Assembly: GCF_000165485.1 (NCBI RefSeq)
Contig: NC_014623.1
Coordinates: 8,140,893 to 8,204,892, forward strand
Direction of reading: 5' to 3'
DNA length: 64,000 nucleotides
Source: Stigmatella aurantiaca DW4/3-1
GTDB lineage: Bacteria; Myxococcota; Myxococcia; Myxococcales; Myxococcaceae
Each line of letters begins with the position of its first letter. Position 1 is the first letter of the stretch. Positions 33,574 through 39,036 of the stretch are shown here, piece after piece. Made by a program: the position numbers and the translations under genes. The notes under the pieces were generated by a model. It was not told the DNA's origin. It saw only the letters and a program-made list of their open reading frames with translations, and ran no database searches.

Positions 33574-34749
33574 ATGAGCGAGGCGTATAGCAGGGATCTG
33601 GAGCGGTGGATTCCGCGGCTCATCGCCGTCTGGAGACAGGCCCGGCGCAAGGGCGACGGGCCGGAGACGAGGCTTACTCCTCAAGAAGTGAAAGAAGTGG
33701 GAGCGGGGGTGAAACAGCTCTCGCTCGGGCTCACCCGGGAGCGGCAGCTCGCGGGGGCCAAGTACATGGATGACCCCCGGCTGCTGGGCGCCTACCTGCT
33801 CTTCTACTGGCCGGTGTCCTACGCCCAGGCGCGTCAAGCGCTCGGGGAGTTGCCGAACCGCCCCCGGCAGGTGCTGGACCTGGGCAGCGGCCCGGGCCCA
33901 CTGGCCTTCGCCGCGCTGGATGCGGGCGCCAAGGAGGTCACCGCCGCGGACCGCAGCAAGCCCGCCCTGGCCCTGGCCCGCTCGCTGGCCACCGAGGCCG
34001 GGGAGGCGCTGGCCACGCGGGAGTGGGACCCCACGCGCAAGGCCCCTCTGCCCGAAGGCGCGTATGACCTCATCACCATGGGCCACGTGCTCAACGAGTT
34101 GTACGGGACGGGCGACGGCGCCATTGCCCCCCGCGCCGCGCTGCTGGAGCAGGTGCTGGCCCAGGTGAAGAAGGGCGGGAGCCTGCTGGTGCTGGAGCCA
34201 GCGCTGCGAGAGACGTCGCGCGCCCTGCTGAAGGTCCGCGACGTGCTGGTGGGAAAGGGCTACGCGGTCCGGGCCCCCTGCCTGTTCCGGGGCAACTGCC
34301 CGGCGCTGGTGAAGGAGAGCGACTGGTGCCACGCGGAGCGGCCCTGGCCCATGCCCCGGGTGGTGGAGGAGCTGGCGCGGGCGGCCGGGCTGCACAAGGA
34401 ATCCCTGAAGATGAGCTACCTGATGCTGGCCCCGGCGGGAGAGGCGTGGCCGGAGCCTCCTCCCGGGAGGCTCTTCCGCATCGTCTCCGAGTCGCTGGAG
34501 GGCAAGGGGCGCCAGCGCTACATCGGCTGCGGGCCCGAGGGCCGCCTGGGTCTGGCACTCCAGGAGAAGCACCGCACGGAGAAGAACGAGCGCTTCTTCA
34601 AGCTCCAGCGCGGGGACGTCCTCTCGGTGACGGAGACCGAGCCCAAGGGCGACGGGCTCGCGCTGGACGATCGCACGGAGGTACGGGTGGTGGCGCCCGC
34701 GGGCCGCGGCGTGCCGCCTCCGCCCTCCCCGTCCAAGGAATCCCCCTGA
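33574..34749 (+). CDS. Rsm22/METTL17-like methyltransferase with cysteine cluster
   Basis: 391 aa from the ATG at 33574 (ribosome binding site poor; GTG at 33568 is an alternative). AYLLFYWPVSYAQ and the SAM loop LDLGSGPG with HVLNELYG match the Rsm22 family, whose eukaryotic members act in mitochondrial small-subunit assembly. A cysteine set, CLFRGNC, SDWCH and later YIGCGPEG, has the order of the 4Fe-4S ligands described for METTL17. The last ~35 residues are Pro-rich and disordered. It is cytoplasmic and probably ribosome-directed; whether it methylates or only binds is not known from sequence. Confidence 0.8.
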   Translation: MSEAYSRDLERWIPRLIAVWRQARRKGDGPETRLTPQEVKEVGAGVKQLSLGLTRERQLAGAKYMDDPRLLGAYLLFYWPVSYAQARQALGELPNRPRQVLDLGSGPGPLAFAALDAGAKEVTAADRSKPALALARSLATEAGEALATREWDPTRKAPLPEGAYDLITMGHVLNELYGTGDGAIAPRAALLEQVLAQVKKGGSLLVLEPALRETSRALLKVRDVLVGKGYAVRAPCLFRGNCPALVKESDWCHAERPWPMPRVVEELARAAGLHKESLKMSYLMLAPAGEAWPEPPPGRLFRIVSESLEGKGRQRYIGCGPEGRLGLALQEKHRTEKNERFFKLQRGDVLSVTETEPKGDGLALDDRTEVRVVAPAGRGVPPPPSPSKESP

Positions 34750-34775
34750 GGTGTCTCGCTGAGACATCTTCCTTC
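34750..34775 (+). terminator. intrinsic terminator after the Rsm22-like gene
   Basis: GGTGTCTC-gct-GAGACATC, 8 pairs with one G-U, begins right at the stop codon and runs into TTCCTTC. This is the best rho-independent terminator in the window and isolates the small Cys peptide gene that follows. Confidence 0.65.
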
Positions 34776-34837
34776 AATACAGCCCCAGTGCTAAGTTATG
34801 CTCCGGCTGTTTCTATCCCCCGCCAGGAGGTTCCCCT

Positions 34838-34978
34838 ATGAAGAAGAGCCGCTCGAAGAAGGCCCATCAGCTCATCACCGCGCTGGTGAAGGAAACCACG
34901 CAGGGGCCCATTGACATCTGTCGCATCTGCAGTTTCTGCATGTTCTGCAACATCTGTCGCATCGGCTCCACCAAGTAG
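34838..34978 (+). CDS. 46-residue peptide with a CxxC array (possible RiPP precursor or metal-binding peptide)
   Basis: ATG at 34838, preceded by AGGAGG at 7 bp, an almost ideal site that argues it is translated. The N-terminal half is basic (MKKSRSKKAHQLITALVKE), a leader-like segment. After GPID the C-terminal part is CRICSFCMFCNIC, five cysteines each three residues apart, then RIGSTK. Such a layout suits either a precursor modified on Cys or a thiolate metal binder. The gene is bracketed by the terminator at 34750 and the gene starting 83 bp downstream. No radical-SAM, DUF692 or transporter gene is near. I do not recognise the peptide family. Confidence 0.75.
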   Translation: MKKSRSKKAHQLITALVKETTQGPIDICRICSFCMFCNICRIGSTK

Positions 34979-35061
34979 AGACTGTGCGGCTCCAGGTGCC
35001 ACCGCCAGGCCAGGACGGGGTGGCGCCTGGAACGCTCCCGGACGCAGCCAGCGAGGACCTG

Positions 35062-35688
35062 ATGAAAAAGGCAGCGACGAAGCGGACCGTGCGCAAGAAG
35101 CAGAGCCCTCGCCCTCCCAGTCCCCGGAGGCGCAAGGTGTGCTCCCTGAAAGAAGCCCTGTCCTACCACAACGAGAAGGTCCTCCGGCGGTTCCTGGACA
35201 TCTACGCCATTCCCGAAGAGGAGGCGCGAGAGCTCTTCCAGGAGACGAAGAAGTGGTTGTGGCTTTGCGCGCGCAGCCTGGAGGAGAAGGGGCCTCGGCT
35301 GGCCGTGCAGACCTCGCTGCTGATGGTGGATGAGATGTGGCACACCTTCATGCAGTACACGCTGGATTACCAACGCTACTGCCTGGACCGGTTCGGCACC
35401 TTCATCCACCACCTGCCCGCCAACTCGGACGACAAGTTGAAGGAGCGCCAGCGCTACGAAGCCAACCCCGAGCGCTTCGTGAAGCGGTACCAGGCCGCGC
35501 TGAAGCGGCAGTACGCCTTTGTCTACGACGAGTTGGGGGAAGAAACGCTGCTCAAGTGGTACCAGGAATACCCCAAGCGCTACTCCCTCGAATTTCTTGA
35601 GCGCCACCGCATCCCCGCAACGCAGGGAATGCACCCGCCGCAGCCCGAAGCGCATCCAGCGCAGGGGACCCCCTCCGTGGCGGCCTGA
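35062..35688 (+). CDS. unknown protein with WH and HH motifs, partner of the Cys peptide
   Basis: 208 aa from the ATG at 35062 with GAGGA upstream. The first ~25 residues are very basic (Lys/Arg). The core carries VDEMWHTFMQYTLDY at about residues 90-104, followed by RYCLDRFGTFIHHLP. Trp-His and His-His spaced ~20 residues apart, with nearby Asp/Glu and a Cys, look like a metal site. Similar W-H/H-H patterns occur in uncharacterised bacterial proteins related to glycine-rich-domain (DUF1399) proteins; I recall this only loosely. The gene follows the CxxC peptide by 83 bp in the same direction, so a maturase, chaperone or metal-delivery role for that peptide is possible. No signal peptide. Confidence 0.65.
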   Translation: MKKAATKRTVRKKQSPRPPSPRRRKVCSLKEALSYHNEKVLRRFLDIYAIPEEEARELFQETKKWLWLCARSLEEKGPRLAVQTSLLMVDEMWHTFMQYTLDYQRYCLDRFGTFIHHLPANSDDKLKERQRYEANPERFVKRYQAALKRQYAFVYDELGEETLLKWYQEYPKRYSLEFLERHRIPATQGMHPPQPEAHPAQGTPSVAA

Positions 35689-35838
35689 GGTCCCGCGCCT
35701 CGGCTGCATCATTGAACCCAAAGCGGAGGCGCTCTGGGGCATGTTTCTCCCCCCTTGGGATGGAGCAAGATAAGGCCTTGCCCGAGCCGGAAGCGGCATG
35801 GGTTCGGCACGGGCGCCACCACCTCTCAGGGGGAAGAG

Positions 35839-38800
35839 ATGCGTCAGGCCTTCGGTTGCGTGCTGATTGTCTTTCTGTGCTGGGCAACCCCTCGACAGTC
35901 CAGCGCGGAGCCACCCGATGCGCGACTGGCGACGGCCCAGGCCGACTTCGACGAGGCGGCCAAGCTCAAAGATGCGGGAAAGTTTCCCGAGGCCCTCGAA
36001 CGAGCGGAGCATGCACTCGCGATCTGGGAGGCCGTACAGGGAGACACCCATCCCAACGTCGCGTCCTGTCTCAACCTGATGGGTGAGCTTTACCGCCAGC
36101 AGGGAGCATTGGCCCGTGCCATGCCCCTCGCTCAGCGGGCGCTCACGATCCGAGAGACAACCCTCGGCAGCAAACACCTCGACGTCGCTCAATCGCTCAA
36201 CGGCCTCGCCGCCATCTATCTAGATCAGGGCTCGCGCGGCCTGGCAGAGCTCCTCTTACAACGCGCGCTCGCCATCCAGGAGGCGGTTCTCAGCGGCAAC
36301 CACCCCGACATCGTCAAAACGCTCCACAACCTCGCTAGGCTTTACCATGAACAAGGGTCATACAGCCGGGCCGAGCCTTTCTATCTGCGCGCACTTGCCC
36401 TCCATGAAGCAGCATCCAGCCACAATCCCTCCCTCCGGCTCTCGATTCTCAACAGCCTCGCTGCCCTCTACAGAGACCAGGGAGCATATGGCCAGGCCGA
36501 ACTCATCTTACAGCGCGAACTCCCCCAACTCGATGCAGCCCCCACTGTCCCCGCTCACCTTGTCGCTGCCGCACTCAATAACCTCGCCATCATCTACAAA
36601 GACCAAGGGATGTACGACCGGGCAGAGCCCCTCTTACAACGCGCGCTCGCCCTATGGGAAGCCACACTCGGCAGCAACCACCCCCACGTCGCCTTGGCGC
36701 TCAATAACCTCGCTGTCCTTTATCAAGCCCAGGGGATGTATGACCGGGCAGAGCCCCTCTTACAACGCACGCTCGCCTTGTGGGAAAACACCCTCGGTAG
36801 CAACCACGCCTACTTCGCCTTGGCGCTCAATAACCTCGCCAATCTTTACTTGGAGCAAGGCTTATACGGCCAAGCCGAGCCTCTCTTCCAGCGTGCGATC
36901 GCTCTTTTGGAGGCCTCACGGGGCAAGACTCACTCCGACGTCGCCGCTTCACTCAACAACCTCGCCAACCTCTACTTAGAGCAAGGATTGTACGGCCGGG
37001 CCACCCCCCTCTACCGGCGCGCTCTCGCCATCCGGGAATCCAACTACGGCAAGAACCACCCCATCGTCGCTGAATCCCTCACCAACCTCGCCGCCCTCTA
37101 CAAAGCCCAAGGGTTGTACGGCCGGGCCGCCTCCCTCTACCGGCGCGCGCTCGCGATCTGGGAAACGGCCCAGGCCCAACACCATCCCTCCTTCGCTGAA
37201 TCGCTCAACGGCCTCGCCCAGCTTCGTTTGGCCCAGCACCGGCTCTCCGACGCACTGCCCCTCTTCACTCGCTCCTTCTCCATTTCCGAGCGGCGCCTGC
37301 GCCAAGAGGCACTCGACTTCTCCGAGTCCCACCTCTCCACCTTCCTCGCCCATCTGCGCACCGACGAGCAGCGGCTCTATGCCCTGCTGCGCGCATACCC
37401 TCAGGACACCCGCGTGCACCGCATGGCCCTCAGCGCCGCGCTCTTGCTCAAGGGCCGCTCCGTGTCGGAGACGGCAAACATCTCCCGTACCCTCTACCGC
37501 AGCCTGGGCCCCGAGGATCACCATGCCTTCGAGCGGCTCCGGAACCTCCGCACCCAACTGGCTTCCCTCTCGTTCGCGGGCCCTGGCGCGCTCTCGTCTA
37601 AAGACTATCAACAGCGCCTCCAATCCCTCACCGAAGAGGGTGACTTACTCGAAGCAGACTTGGCCAAGCGCTCCGCCCCCCTGCGTTCTCTCTCCTCGCT
37701 GCCTCCTCCTGGCGAGATTGTCGGCCGCGTCGCTGCCTCCCTTCCCAAGGATGCCGCGCTGGTCGAATTGATCGCCTACGCCGACAGCCCCCTCGTCCCC
37801 ACACCCGGGACACCTCCCGCCAAGGCCGTCGGCCCGATGCGCTACCTGGCCCTGCTCCTCTTTCCCGACGCCTCCACCCGCGCCGTGGACCTCGGCCCCG
37901 CATTTCCCATCGACCAAGCCGCCTCTCGCCTCCGCGATGCCCTGGCTGAGCGCGAGGCCTCCTTCCAATCGATTGCCCAGGACCTCTACCGGCGCGCCTT
38001 CTTGCCCCTGCTTCCGCTGCTGGGCTCCACCCGCCGGCTCTTCCTGTCTCCCGACAGCCAATTGGGCGTCATCCCCTTCTCCACCCTCCACGACGGCCAG
38101 GGCTTCCTCCTGGACTCCTTTGACTTCACCTACCTCACCTCGGGCCGTGATCTGCTGCCGCGTCCCCTCGACAGCGTTCCTGCCTCCTCTGTCTTCATCC
38201 TCGCAGCCCCCGACTTCACCGCCGCCTCACCTTCTGGGACTCGGCCTCTCTCCTCTCACTCCCCTCCCTCTGGCGCCTTGGAGCGCTTCTTCTCCCTCCC
38301 ACGCTCAGACCTGAACCGAAGCGCCTGGGTCCCCCTCCCTGGCACACGTCTCGAGGCCGAAGGCATTCAGCGCCTGTTGCCCCAAGCGCAGCTCTTCCTG
38401 GGCCCGGAGGCCACCAAGGACAGACTTCTGCACCTGCCGACTCCGGGCATTCTCCACTTGGCCACCCATGGCTTCTTCCTGGGCAGTGCCCCTTCCTCCC
38501 CGGACTCGCGGGGCCTGGTCTCCGTTGACTCCCTGGGCGGCGCACCTTCTCCTCACCAACAGCCTTTGCTCAACTCCGGCCTTGTCCTGGCGGGGGCTCA
38601 TGCCGCTGCCTCAGGCTCTCCCGCCCCCTCGCTCGAAGACACGCTCGTCACCGCGCTGGAATTGGCGGGGCTCAACCTCTGGGGCACCCAGCTCGTTGTC
38701 CTGTCCGCCTGTGACACCGGCCGGGGCGAAGTCCACATCGGCCAGGGCGTCTACGGTCTGCGCCGCGCGTTGGTCGCGGCGGGGGCGGAAACCATGCTCG

Positions 38801-39036
38801 TGAGCCTGTGGAAGGTGAATGACAACTCCACGCACCTGCTCATGGACCTCTACTACCGCAACCTCTTGAACGGCCAGGGCCGTGCCTCTGCCCTGCGCCA
38901 GGCCATGCTCTCTTTGCGCGAGACCCATCCTCATCCCCATGCCTGGGCCCCCTTCATCGCCCTGGGCAGCGATGCGCCCCTGCGCGCCATCGCCCCCGCC
39001 ACACAGCAGACTTCACTGGCAGAGACCTCTCCTTGA
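35839..39036 (+). CDS. secreted TPR-CHAT protein (caspase-like protease domain)
   Basis: 1065 aa from the ATG at 35839 (GGGGGAAGAG just upstream). A Sec signal is likely at 1-24 (ends SSAEPP). About ten kinesin-light-chain-type TPRs of 42 residues follow (~45-490) with the ALNNLAxLYxxQGxYxxAEPL consensus. A helical linker leads to the C-terminal CHAT domain, with catalytic His877 in LATHGFF and Cys958 in LSACDTGRG and the conserved VSLWKVND motif. Both catalytic residues are intact, so it should be a Cys protease, here in the periplasm or outside, unlike the cytoplasmic defence TPR-CHAT. Base composition is less GC-rich than its neighbours. Target unknown. Confidence 0.88.
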   Translation: MRQAFGCVLIVFLCWATPRQSSAEPPDARLATAQADFDEAAKLKDAGKFPEALERAEHALAIWEAVQGDTHPNVASCLNLMGELYRQQGALARAMPLAQRALTIRETTLGSKHLDVAQSLNGLAAIYLDQGSRGLAELLLQRALAIQEAVLSGNHPDIVKTLHNLARLYHEQGSYSRAEPFYLRALALHEAASSHNPSLRLSILNSLAALYRDQGAYGQAELILQRELPQLDAAPTVPAHLVAAALNNLAIIYKDQGMYDRAEPLLQRALALWEATLGSNHPHVALALNNLAVLYQAQGMYDRAEPLLQRTLALWENTLGSNHAYFALALNNLANLYLEQGLYGQAEPLFQRAIALLEASRGKTHSDVAASLNNLANLYLEQGLYGRATPLYRRALAIRESNYGKNHPIVAESLTNLAALYKAQGLYGRAASLYRRALAIWETAQAQHHPSFAESLNGLAQLRLAQHRLSDALPLFTRSFSISERRLRQEALDFSESHLSTFLAHLRTDEQRLYALLRAYPQDTRVHRMALSAALLLKGRSVSETANISRTLYRSLGPEDHHAFERLRNLRTQLASLSFAGPGALSSKDYQQRLQSLTEEGDLLEADLAKRSAPLRSLSSLPPPGEIVGRVAASLPKDAALVELIAYADSPLVPTPGTPPAKAVGPMRYLALLLFPDASTRAVDLGPAFPIDQAASRLRDALAEREASFQSIAQDLYRRAFLPLLPLLGSTRRLFLSPDSQLGVIPFSTLHDGQGFLLDSFDFTYLTSGRDLLPRPLDSVPASSVFILAAPDFTAASPSGTRPLSSHSPPSGALERFFSLPRSDLNRSAWVPLPGTRLEAEGIQRLLPQAQLFLGPEATKDRLLHLPTPGILHLATHGFFLGSAPSSPDSRGLVSVDSLGGAPSPHQQPLLNSGLVLAGAHAAASGSPAPSLEDTLVTALELAGLNLWGTQLVVLSACDTGRGEVHIGQGVYGLRRALVAAGAETMLVSLWKVNDNSTHLLMDLYYRNLLNGQGRASALRQAMLSLRETHPHPHAWAPFIALGSDAPLRAIAPATQQTSLAETSP
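36574..37203 (+). repeat. five 126-bp tandem coding repeats (TPR units)
   Basis: Units start at 36574, 36700, 36826, 36952 and 37078, at an exact 126-bp period, and open with CTCAAYAACCTCGC or a close variant. They encode 42-aa TPRs. The near identity at DNA level suggests recent duplication or ongoing conversion, and a site where copy number could vary. Confidence 0.85.

Follow-up and report, generated by a model that had tools for sequence, protein, structure and literature searches.

What do a short Cys-rich reading frame and the uncharacterised gene that follows it encode, and do the two products act together? The locus lies in a 64,000-nucleotide stretch of the Stigmatella aurantiaca DW4/3-1 genome (NC_014623.1, positions 8,140,893 to 8,204,892; hereafter the window), and a preliminary description had proposed that the second protein matures or metallates the first.

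The peptide gene and the 208-residue protein gene

The coordinates bear out what had been described: a 46-residue peptide with five Cys at every third residue, a near-ideal ribosome-binding site and, after a gap of 83 bp, a 208-residue protein with WH and HH motifs. The features are as follows.

34825..34830, + strand: AGGAGG Shine-Dalgarno (SD) sequence of the peptide gene, 7 nt upstream of the ATG (read from the sequence)
34838..34978, + strand: gene for the 46-residue Cys peptide, a leader-core precursor (open reading frame; conserved in L002, L003 and L004; paralogue)
34862..34894, + strand: leader motif AHQLITALVKE, residues 9–19 (10-clade motif search; common to precursors of other phyla)
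34916..34975, + strand: C-terminal core, residues 27–46, with five Cys, CxxCxxCxxCxxC (sequence)
35062..35688, + strand: gene for the 208-residue WH/HH protein, a remote GRDP-like relative and proposed maturase (open reading frame, homologues, hhalign, AF2)
35329..35343, + strand: codons D90-E91-M92-W93-H94; D90 and H94 are invariant and are proposed metal ligands
35407..35412, + strand: codons H116-H117; H117 is invariant and is a proposed metal ligand

The Cys of the peptide are residues 28, 31, 34, 37 and 40. In the second reading frame, which runs from the ATG at 35062 to a stop codon ending at 35688, WH corresponds to residues 93–94 and HH to residues 116–117. An alternative in-frame GTG at 34984 would give a protein of 234 rather than 208 residues; as against this start, the ATG at 35062 and the GAGG preceding it are both preserved in the DNA of L002 and L003. 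No SD-preceded ATG reading frame of 25–60 residues with a CxxC array of at least four Cys was found on either strand of 800 kb of control sequence.

The peptide has no signal peptide apparent by eye in its leader, no Pfam family match and, in NCBIfam, neither TIGR04222 nor another precursor signature, the one match being at chance level to an unrelated model (E 0.12). No RRE or known RiPP enzyme was matched by Pfam or NCBIfam in either product; an RRE is common in RiPP systems, not universal, and many have no detectable one.

The gene preceding the pair encodes an Rsm22-like methyltransferase (Pfam). The preliminary description had placed a good terminator between this gene and the pair, which did not hold: a scan of 34700–35850 gave no terminator-like site where 0.9 would be expected by chance, and a short hairpin seen by eye after 34749 has a poor T run. 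Its statement that no known RiPP enzyme is near agrees with the Pfam scan of the nine neighbours between 28.3 and 41.1 kb, which, like the pair itself, include no known RiPP enzyme, peptidase or exporter and no MNIO (DUF692). Directly 3′ of the pair, at 35839–39036, is the gene for a large TPR-CHAT protein with repetitive TPR DNA; this gene was not found beside the pair in genomes G001 and G004.

Conservation of the pair within the genus

The 208-residue protein is present in five of seven genomes of the genus, with the peptide upstream in four of these five. The peptide frame, whose loss in related strains would have spoken against the proposal of the preliminary description, is conserved in three sister genomes; its dN/dS lies between 0.27 and 0.79, below 1 in all six pairs of the window, L002, L003 and L004, and that of the 208-residue protein gene between 0.14 and 0.26. 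The L002 peptide retains the leader while its Cys spacing differs from that of the window core.

To delimit the unit, 22 kb of the window was compared by blastn (E ≤ 1e-10) with the 20 kb surrounding the pair in other genomes. For the sister species G001 and G004 the sole matches were 34840–35691 and 34841–35688, respectively, which are the two genes. The sole match for G006 was 35137–35662, within the 208-residue protein gene, and G005 is syntenic with the window on both sides of the pair. The peptide and 208-residue protein genes are one real unit.

A second, paralogous peptide (61–63% identity; 63% for the paralogue in the genome of the window) has no WH gene beside it in G000 and G005, and in G001 it is followed by a 36-residue C-terminal remnant of the 208-residue protein gene, so a peptide gene can persist after the WH gene next to it has been lost. 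These orphan second peptides (G000:C1:9884352-9884480, L014; G005, L154; G001, L006 and L155) have the core CDICFIFCNIC.

Small Cys peptides beside close homologues

Homologues were sought in 195 Myxococcota genomes, 395 genomes of the Bacteroidia, 291 genomes of one Bacteroidota order, a genome collection and plasmids. Nineteen close homologues, including those of the window and its genus, were assessable and had neither a cis tail nor a large Cys-tailed partner; left out were L127 (contig end), L072 (E. coli, cis tail), two further E. coli copies (L071 and L074), L012 (trans, large protein) and L075. An upstream peptide was defined as a reading frame of 30–65 residues that ends 10–250 bp upstream and whose last 22 residues include two or more Cys. 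A strict rule that includes an SD sequence misses the Bacteroidota peptides, and for this reason the looser rule was adopted with a control of its own.

Such a peptide precedes 17 of the 19 homologues, in both Myxococcota and Bacteroidota, as against 38 of 627 control genes (6%) from 800 kb (binomial 3e-19). For one of these, L126, an internal ATG (1483) was taken as the start; the rule needs 10 bp, and the peptide ends only 4 bp ahead of the ATG (1435) of the longer reading frame. In L022 (1414–2193, reverse strand), where W93 is replaced by Leu, a Cys peptide with the core ACFCCIGC lies downstream rather than upstream. Hence 18 of the 19 homologues have a small Cys peptide alongside, and the contrary finding that the preliminary description had named, homologues consistently lacking one, was not obtained. 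The protein of H. versicolor (L005) is present without a leader-type peptide; one downstream reading frame there passes the loose Cys rule and lacks the leader motif. In L121 there are two tandem, near-identical precursors. The form CxxCxxCxxCxxC, which the preliminary description had suggested as the pattern to look for beside homologues, is just one of many core types, which have two to five Cys and other spacings.

A shared leader and variable cores

The leaders were compared by ungapped alignment in ten of the 18 peptide-bearing loci, one per clade, omitting near relatives of the window, L020, L010 and L073. The ten clades share a motif of approximately K-x-x-L-I-x-x-L-L-x-K (AHQLITALVKE in the window), with a score of 924 compared to a mean of 322 (sd 37.5) for composition-preserving shuffles, none of 500 of which reached 924. 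When six clades were compared, the score was reached by 1 of 500 shuffles for a motif of 8 residues and by 0 of 500 for motifs of 9 and of 10 residues.

The cores that follow differ in both the number of Cys (2 to 5) and their spacing, as exemplified by CRICSFCMFCNIC, CIPPCVVCSVC, ACFCCIGC, CLIQC, CITSGC and CIIIC. In L125 and L126, VGG stands immediately before the core HCSNCGHC. A shared leader ahead of hypervariable Cys cores is, judged from the sequences, the layout of RiPP precursors, which are short and genetically encoded and combine a conserved leader with a variable core.

The C-terminus of the third gene in L125, L126 and L073 resembles a PqqD-like RRE by eye; Pfam gave no support and this candidate was rejected.

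Family, fold and invariant residues of the 208-residue protein

The 208-residue protein has no significant match in Pfam or NCBIfam, and a match to PF07173 is lacking even at an E limit of 10. Weaker relatives are detected with its family profile, mostly at E 1e-10 to 1e-3 per genome, and two of these, L048 (25.7 bits) and L061 (26.4 bits), exceed the PF07173 gathering score of 22.7. By hhalign, the close group aligns with the group holding L048 and L061 at 98.1% (E 1.4e-13), with the Gly/Cys-partner group at 97.3% and with a third set at 99.7%, compared to 0.3% for a reversed-sequence control. These profile comparisons make the protein a distant relative of the GRDP-like family (PF07173/DUF1399), itself uncharacterised. 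A PF07173 search of 39 relatives and 14 control genomes gave no match anywhere, which is no indication of absence.

The AlphaFold2 (AF2) model is mostly helical, with a mean pLDDT of 86. Foldseek found no solved relative in the PDB (best E 2.5; best Z 2.5 on a second look), which does not prove a new fold. In BFVD the first match was a Harvfovirus protein named GRDP-like and the second an unnamed Gaeavirus protein, both with a probability of 1.00, E values of 0.017 and 0.032, and TM scores of only 0.36 and 0.33 of the query, respectively.

Residue conservation was taken from 47 aligned sequences (20 close and 27 weaker homologues). D90, H94, T100, Y103, H117 and P119 are invariant in all 47, and W93 (46/47), H116 (46/47), W166 (45/47) and C107 (43/47, Ser in 4) are nearly so. 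In the sequences read outside the 47, H116 and P119 can vary (HHRS in the L024 type, QH in the L044 type, PH in L163), and D..WH and the second His are retained. In the predicted model D90 and H94 are one turn apart on helix 84–99, and H117 is in the loop after helix 102–111. The suggestion that the WH and HH motifs form a metal site is therefore plausible, with D90, H94 and H117, three of the residues invariant in the 47, as the candidate site in the model.

Cys-rich tails in the wider family

In the weaker relatives a tail was scored when the last 45 residues, either of the protein itself or of the next gene's product, contained at least four Cys. The scan of the Bacteroidia listed 34 places, of which 30 were taken as loci, and that of the Bacteroidota order listed 60, of which 30 were taken. 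A tail was found at 26 of 29 weaker Bacteroidia loci (15 in the same protein, 11 in the next gene) and at 19 of 22 further weaker Bacteroidota loci (16 and 3). Combined, 45 of the 51 weaker Bacteroidota relatives examined have a tail in the same or next product and in 31 of the 51 it is fused, these loci not all being independent since some are near relatives of one another. Among control genes of the Bacteroidia, 9 of 331 satisfy the rule with their own product and 1 of 331 with that of the next gene; the corresponding counts for the genome of the window are 10 of 296 and 4 of 296. Six loci fall short: L067 and L069 have three Cys in the protein itself, L066, L140 and L143 have three in the product of the next gene, and L147 has none. 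Examples of tails are GDSGCSGCSGCGGCGG, CWHDCENRCWHACS and SSCGSSCGSSCGGCGGD.

A cis tail is also encoded on 7.9-kb mobilizable E. coli plasmids (VCGCSGKGCGAGCSC), where the gene is followed by genes for an ABC transporter and then a JmjC_2 protein. This cluster of three genes (WH/HH protein with a Cys-Gly tail, ABC transporter, JmjC_2) is located at L072:1557-4782 (NZ_CP103707.1) and also occurs in L071. At least 80% of it is held by 29 of 5,426 RefSeq E. coli genomes, and 100 of 100 matching places are on plasmids. It is possibly an undescribed secreted peptide system. A role in anti-phage defence was considered and rejected, there being no PADLOC match for the window protein, two proteins of the E. 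coli cluster and one protein of L122.

Further cis tails occur on plasmids of Paenibacillus, Agrobacterium (two tandem copies) and Rhizobium and in a Klebsiella phage; the plasmid matches H48, H51 and H54 and the phage match H56 are outside the tail survey. On viral contigs the last 45 residues contain four Cys in L078, six in each of the near-identical L079 and L080, and three in L077. The Cys-tailed WH proteins of Agrobacterium (L164:1714-2950) and Rhizobium (L166:2336-2926) are followed by annotated glycosyltransferase genes, together with an ABC transporter in Agrobacterium, and glycosylated peptides are a possible product of these plasmid loci. In a Streptomyces plasmid (L163:843-3145) the gene for a 178-residue protein with a six-Cys C-terminus is followed by that for a second protein, cupin-like by eye and without an NCBIfam match, and then by that for a WH protein in which HH is replaced by PH. 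The Rhodococcus plasmid relative adjoins a gene resembling an ATP-grasp peptide maturase (TIGR04187, 115 bits, below the cut-off of 350).

Tails are not universal. Among 11 weaker loci (L023–L030 and L032–L034) a tail with four or more Cys is found in L028 alone, and no Cys tail is present in L030, L075, L147 or L165. A myxobacterial WH subfamily with the motif FFIHHRS (seven loci: L024, L025, L027, L029 and L032–L034) lacks a Cys tail; where the locus shows it, a conserved protein of 423–441 residues is encoded on one side and a membrane-transporter-like gene lies on the other. In L023 (1974–2054, two Cys) and L026 (approximately 1937–2017, one Cys) a tiny reading frame directly follows the WH gene (MKKIFMKFFAKKIATAIDCCGQFPPRV and MLKIISMLFKTKKVANAAFCDGNPDN); the two are similar to each other by eye and may represent another type of precursor.

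Proposed function

The pair is best read, with a probability of about 0.58, as a minimal RiPP-type module consisting of a precursor and a metal-dependent maturase related to the GRDP-like proteins, arranged in trans here and in cis elsewhere. The proposal of the preliminary description is strongly supported as far as the pairing and a role in peptide maturation are concerned, by the small Cys peptides beside the homologues and by the conserved peptide frame; chemical maturation or metallation of the peptide by its partner is likely. The RiPP-type layout would be combined with an undescribed partner family, for which we infer catalysis, metal binding, leader binding and Cys as the modified residue.

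The 208-residue protein would bind the leader of the peptide, hold a metal through D90-x3-H94, on one helix, and H117, and act on the core Cys at this metal site. In many relatives the same domain would act on a Cys-rich tail of its own, in cis, or on one carried by the product of the next gene, and leader recognition would be unneeded in many of them because the tail belongs to the same protein. The ligands would form a 2-His-1-carboxylate-like set, and sets of this kind are known from non-haem iron enzymes; given this resemblance, an oxidative reaction on Cys would be the first guess.

The serious rival is metal buffering or delivery, in which the unmodified Cys peptide would itself be the ligand, like a metallothionein or copper buffer, and the WH/HH protein a metallochaperone that loads it without covalent change. 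Soft metals have natural ligands in CxxC arrays and Gly/Cys tails, and the D/H/H set is invariant. Many precursors, on the other hand, have only two Cys, with x3 or x4 spacing (CIIIC, CLIQC, CITSGC), which is poor for stoichiometric buffering. The nine scanned neighbours include no metal-resistance gene. The conserved leader, the VGG of L125 and L126 and the linkage to ABC transporter, JmjC and ATP-grasp genes suit maturation and export better, and we consider buffering unlikely even with the precedent of the bufferins, which are tied to copper in the portions of PMC12452194 consulted.

Distinctly less probable is an immunity or carrier pair, with an unmodified secreted or signalling peptide whose leader is merely bound by the WH/HH protein as immunity protein, chaperone or escort. 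The occurrence of the two-gene unit in different flanks, the small mobilizable E. coli plasmids and the paralogous orphan peptides would fit such a pair. Against it, fusion of the domain to Cys tails, as in 31 of the 51 weaker Bacteroidota relatives, would be needless for an immunity protein, and the invariant polar set is typical of an active site. Chance proximity of a spurious short reading frame to an unrelated gene has a negligible probability and is ruled out by conservation (dN/dS < 1, two genes alone in common with G001 and G004), by the leader motif (0 of 500 shuffles) and by the control counts, two-Cys frames preceding 6% of control genes on loose criteria (38/627) as against 17 of 19 homologues.

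A generalisation of the maturase reading is more tentative, and we would put it at somewhat below even odds: the D..WH/HH domain would be an undescribed and very widespread metalloenzyme acting on Cys of disordered tails at the C-terminus. In plants, phages and many bacteria it would modify them in cis, and in myxobacteria and Bacteroidota in trans, on leader-guided precursors. If true, this would establish a new RiPP class and the first biochemical function for the plant GRDP/DUF1399 domain. A domain of unknown function, found from plasmids and phage to the chromosomes of several phyla and related to a plant family, accompanies C-termini rich in Cys, whether in the same protein or in a separate one, and the window has its minimal form, two small genes with nothing else conserved. 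A peptide-modifying activity, if confirmed, would bear on plant GRDPs, on Gly/Cys-tail proteins and on the plasmid-borne E. coli cluster.

Comparison with known systems

Classical leader-core RiPP precursors, such as those with a GG leader, likewise have a conserved leader and a hypervariable core, and VGG occurs in L125 and L126. The window module differs from them in that no known maturase, peptidase or exporter is recognised in the pair or its nine neighbours.

According to portions of PMC12452194, MNIO enzymes modify Cys-rich precursors, probably including some TIGR04222 proteins with Ser/Gly/Cys tails. As described there, these (DUF692) systems resemble the module in having Cys precursors or C-terminal Ser/Gly/Cys tails beside a modifying enzyme; they differ in that the enzyme family is another one, no MNIO is nearby and the leader of the module has no apparent signal peptide. 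The WH/HH family could be the partner in a TIGR04222-type context, with one sub-threshold match, the cis protein L046 (14.9 bits, cut-off 43). Neither GRDP nor PF07173 occurs in the main text of PMC12452194, and among the matches listed in the covered part of the open-licence literature none links GRDP, DUF1399, TIGR04222 or UCP032817 to RiPPs or Cys tails.

The GRDP-like family (PF07173/DUF1399) has the pattern D..WH..I..T..Y..DC...HH.P in common with the family of the 208-residue protein, the link running through bacterial members. In the portions of PMC4299439 consulted, Arabidopsis GRDP2 is termed a protein of unknown function and ends in a domain rich in Gly, among which Cys are interspersed (consensus [CG]GGGCGG[GC]). 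The likeness to plant GRDP2 is drawn from this partial published description; the window protein differs in having no Gly/Cys tail and a separate short precursor instead.

In borosins the modifying domain carries its own substrate at the C-terminus (PMC7878506, in part). The module differs from these in having no methyltransferase domain (Pfam), other motifs and Cys cores. On the same partial account, borosins are the closest organisational parallel, with the core in cis and split forms that also exist.
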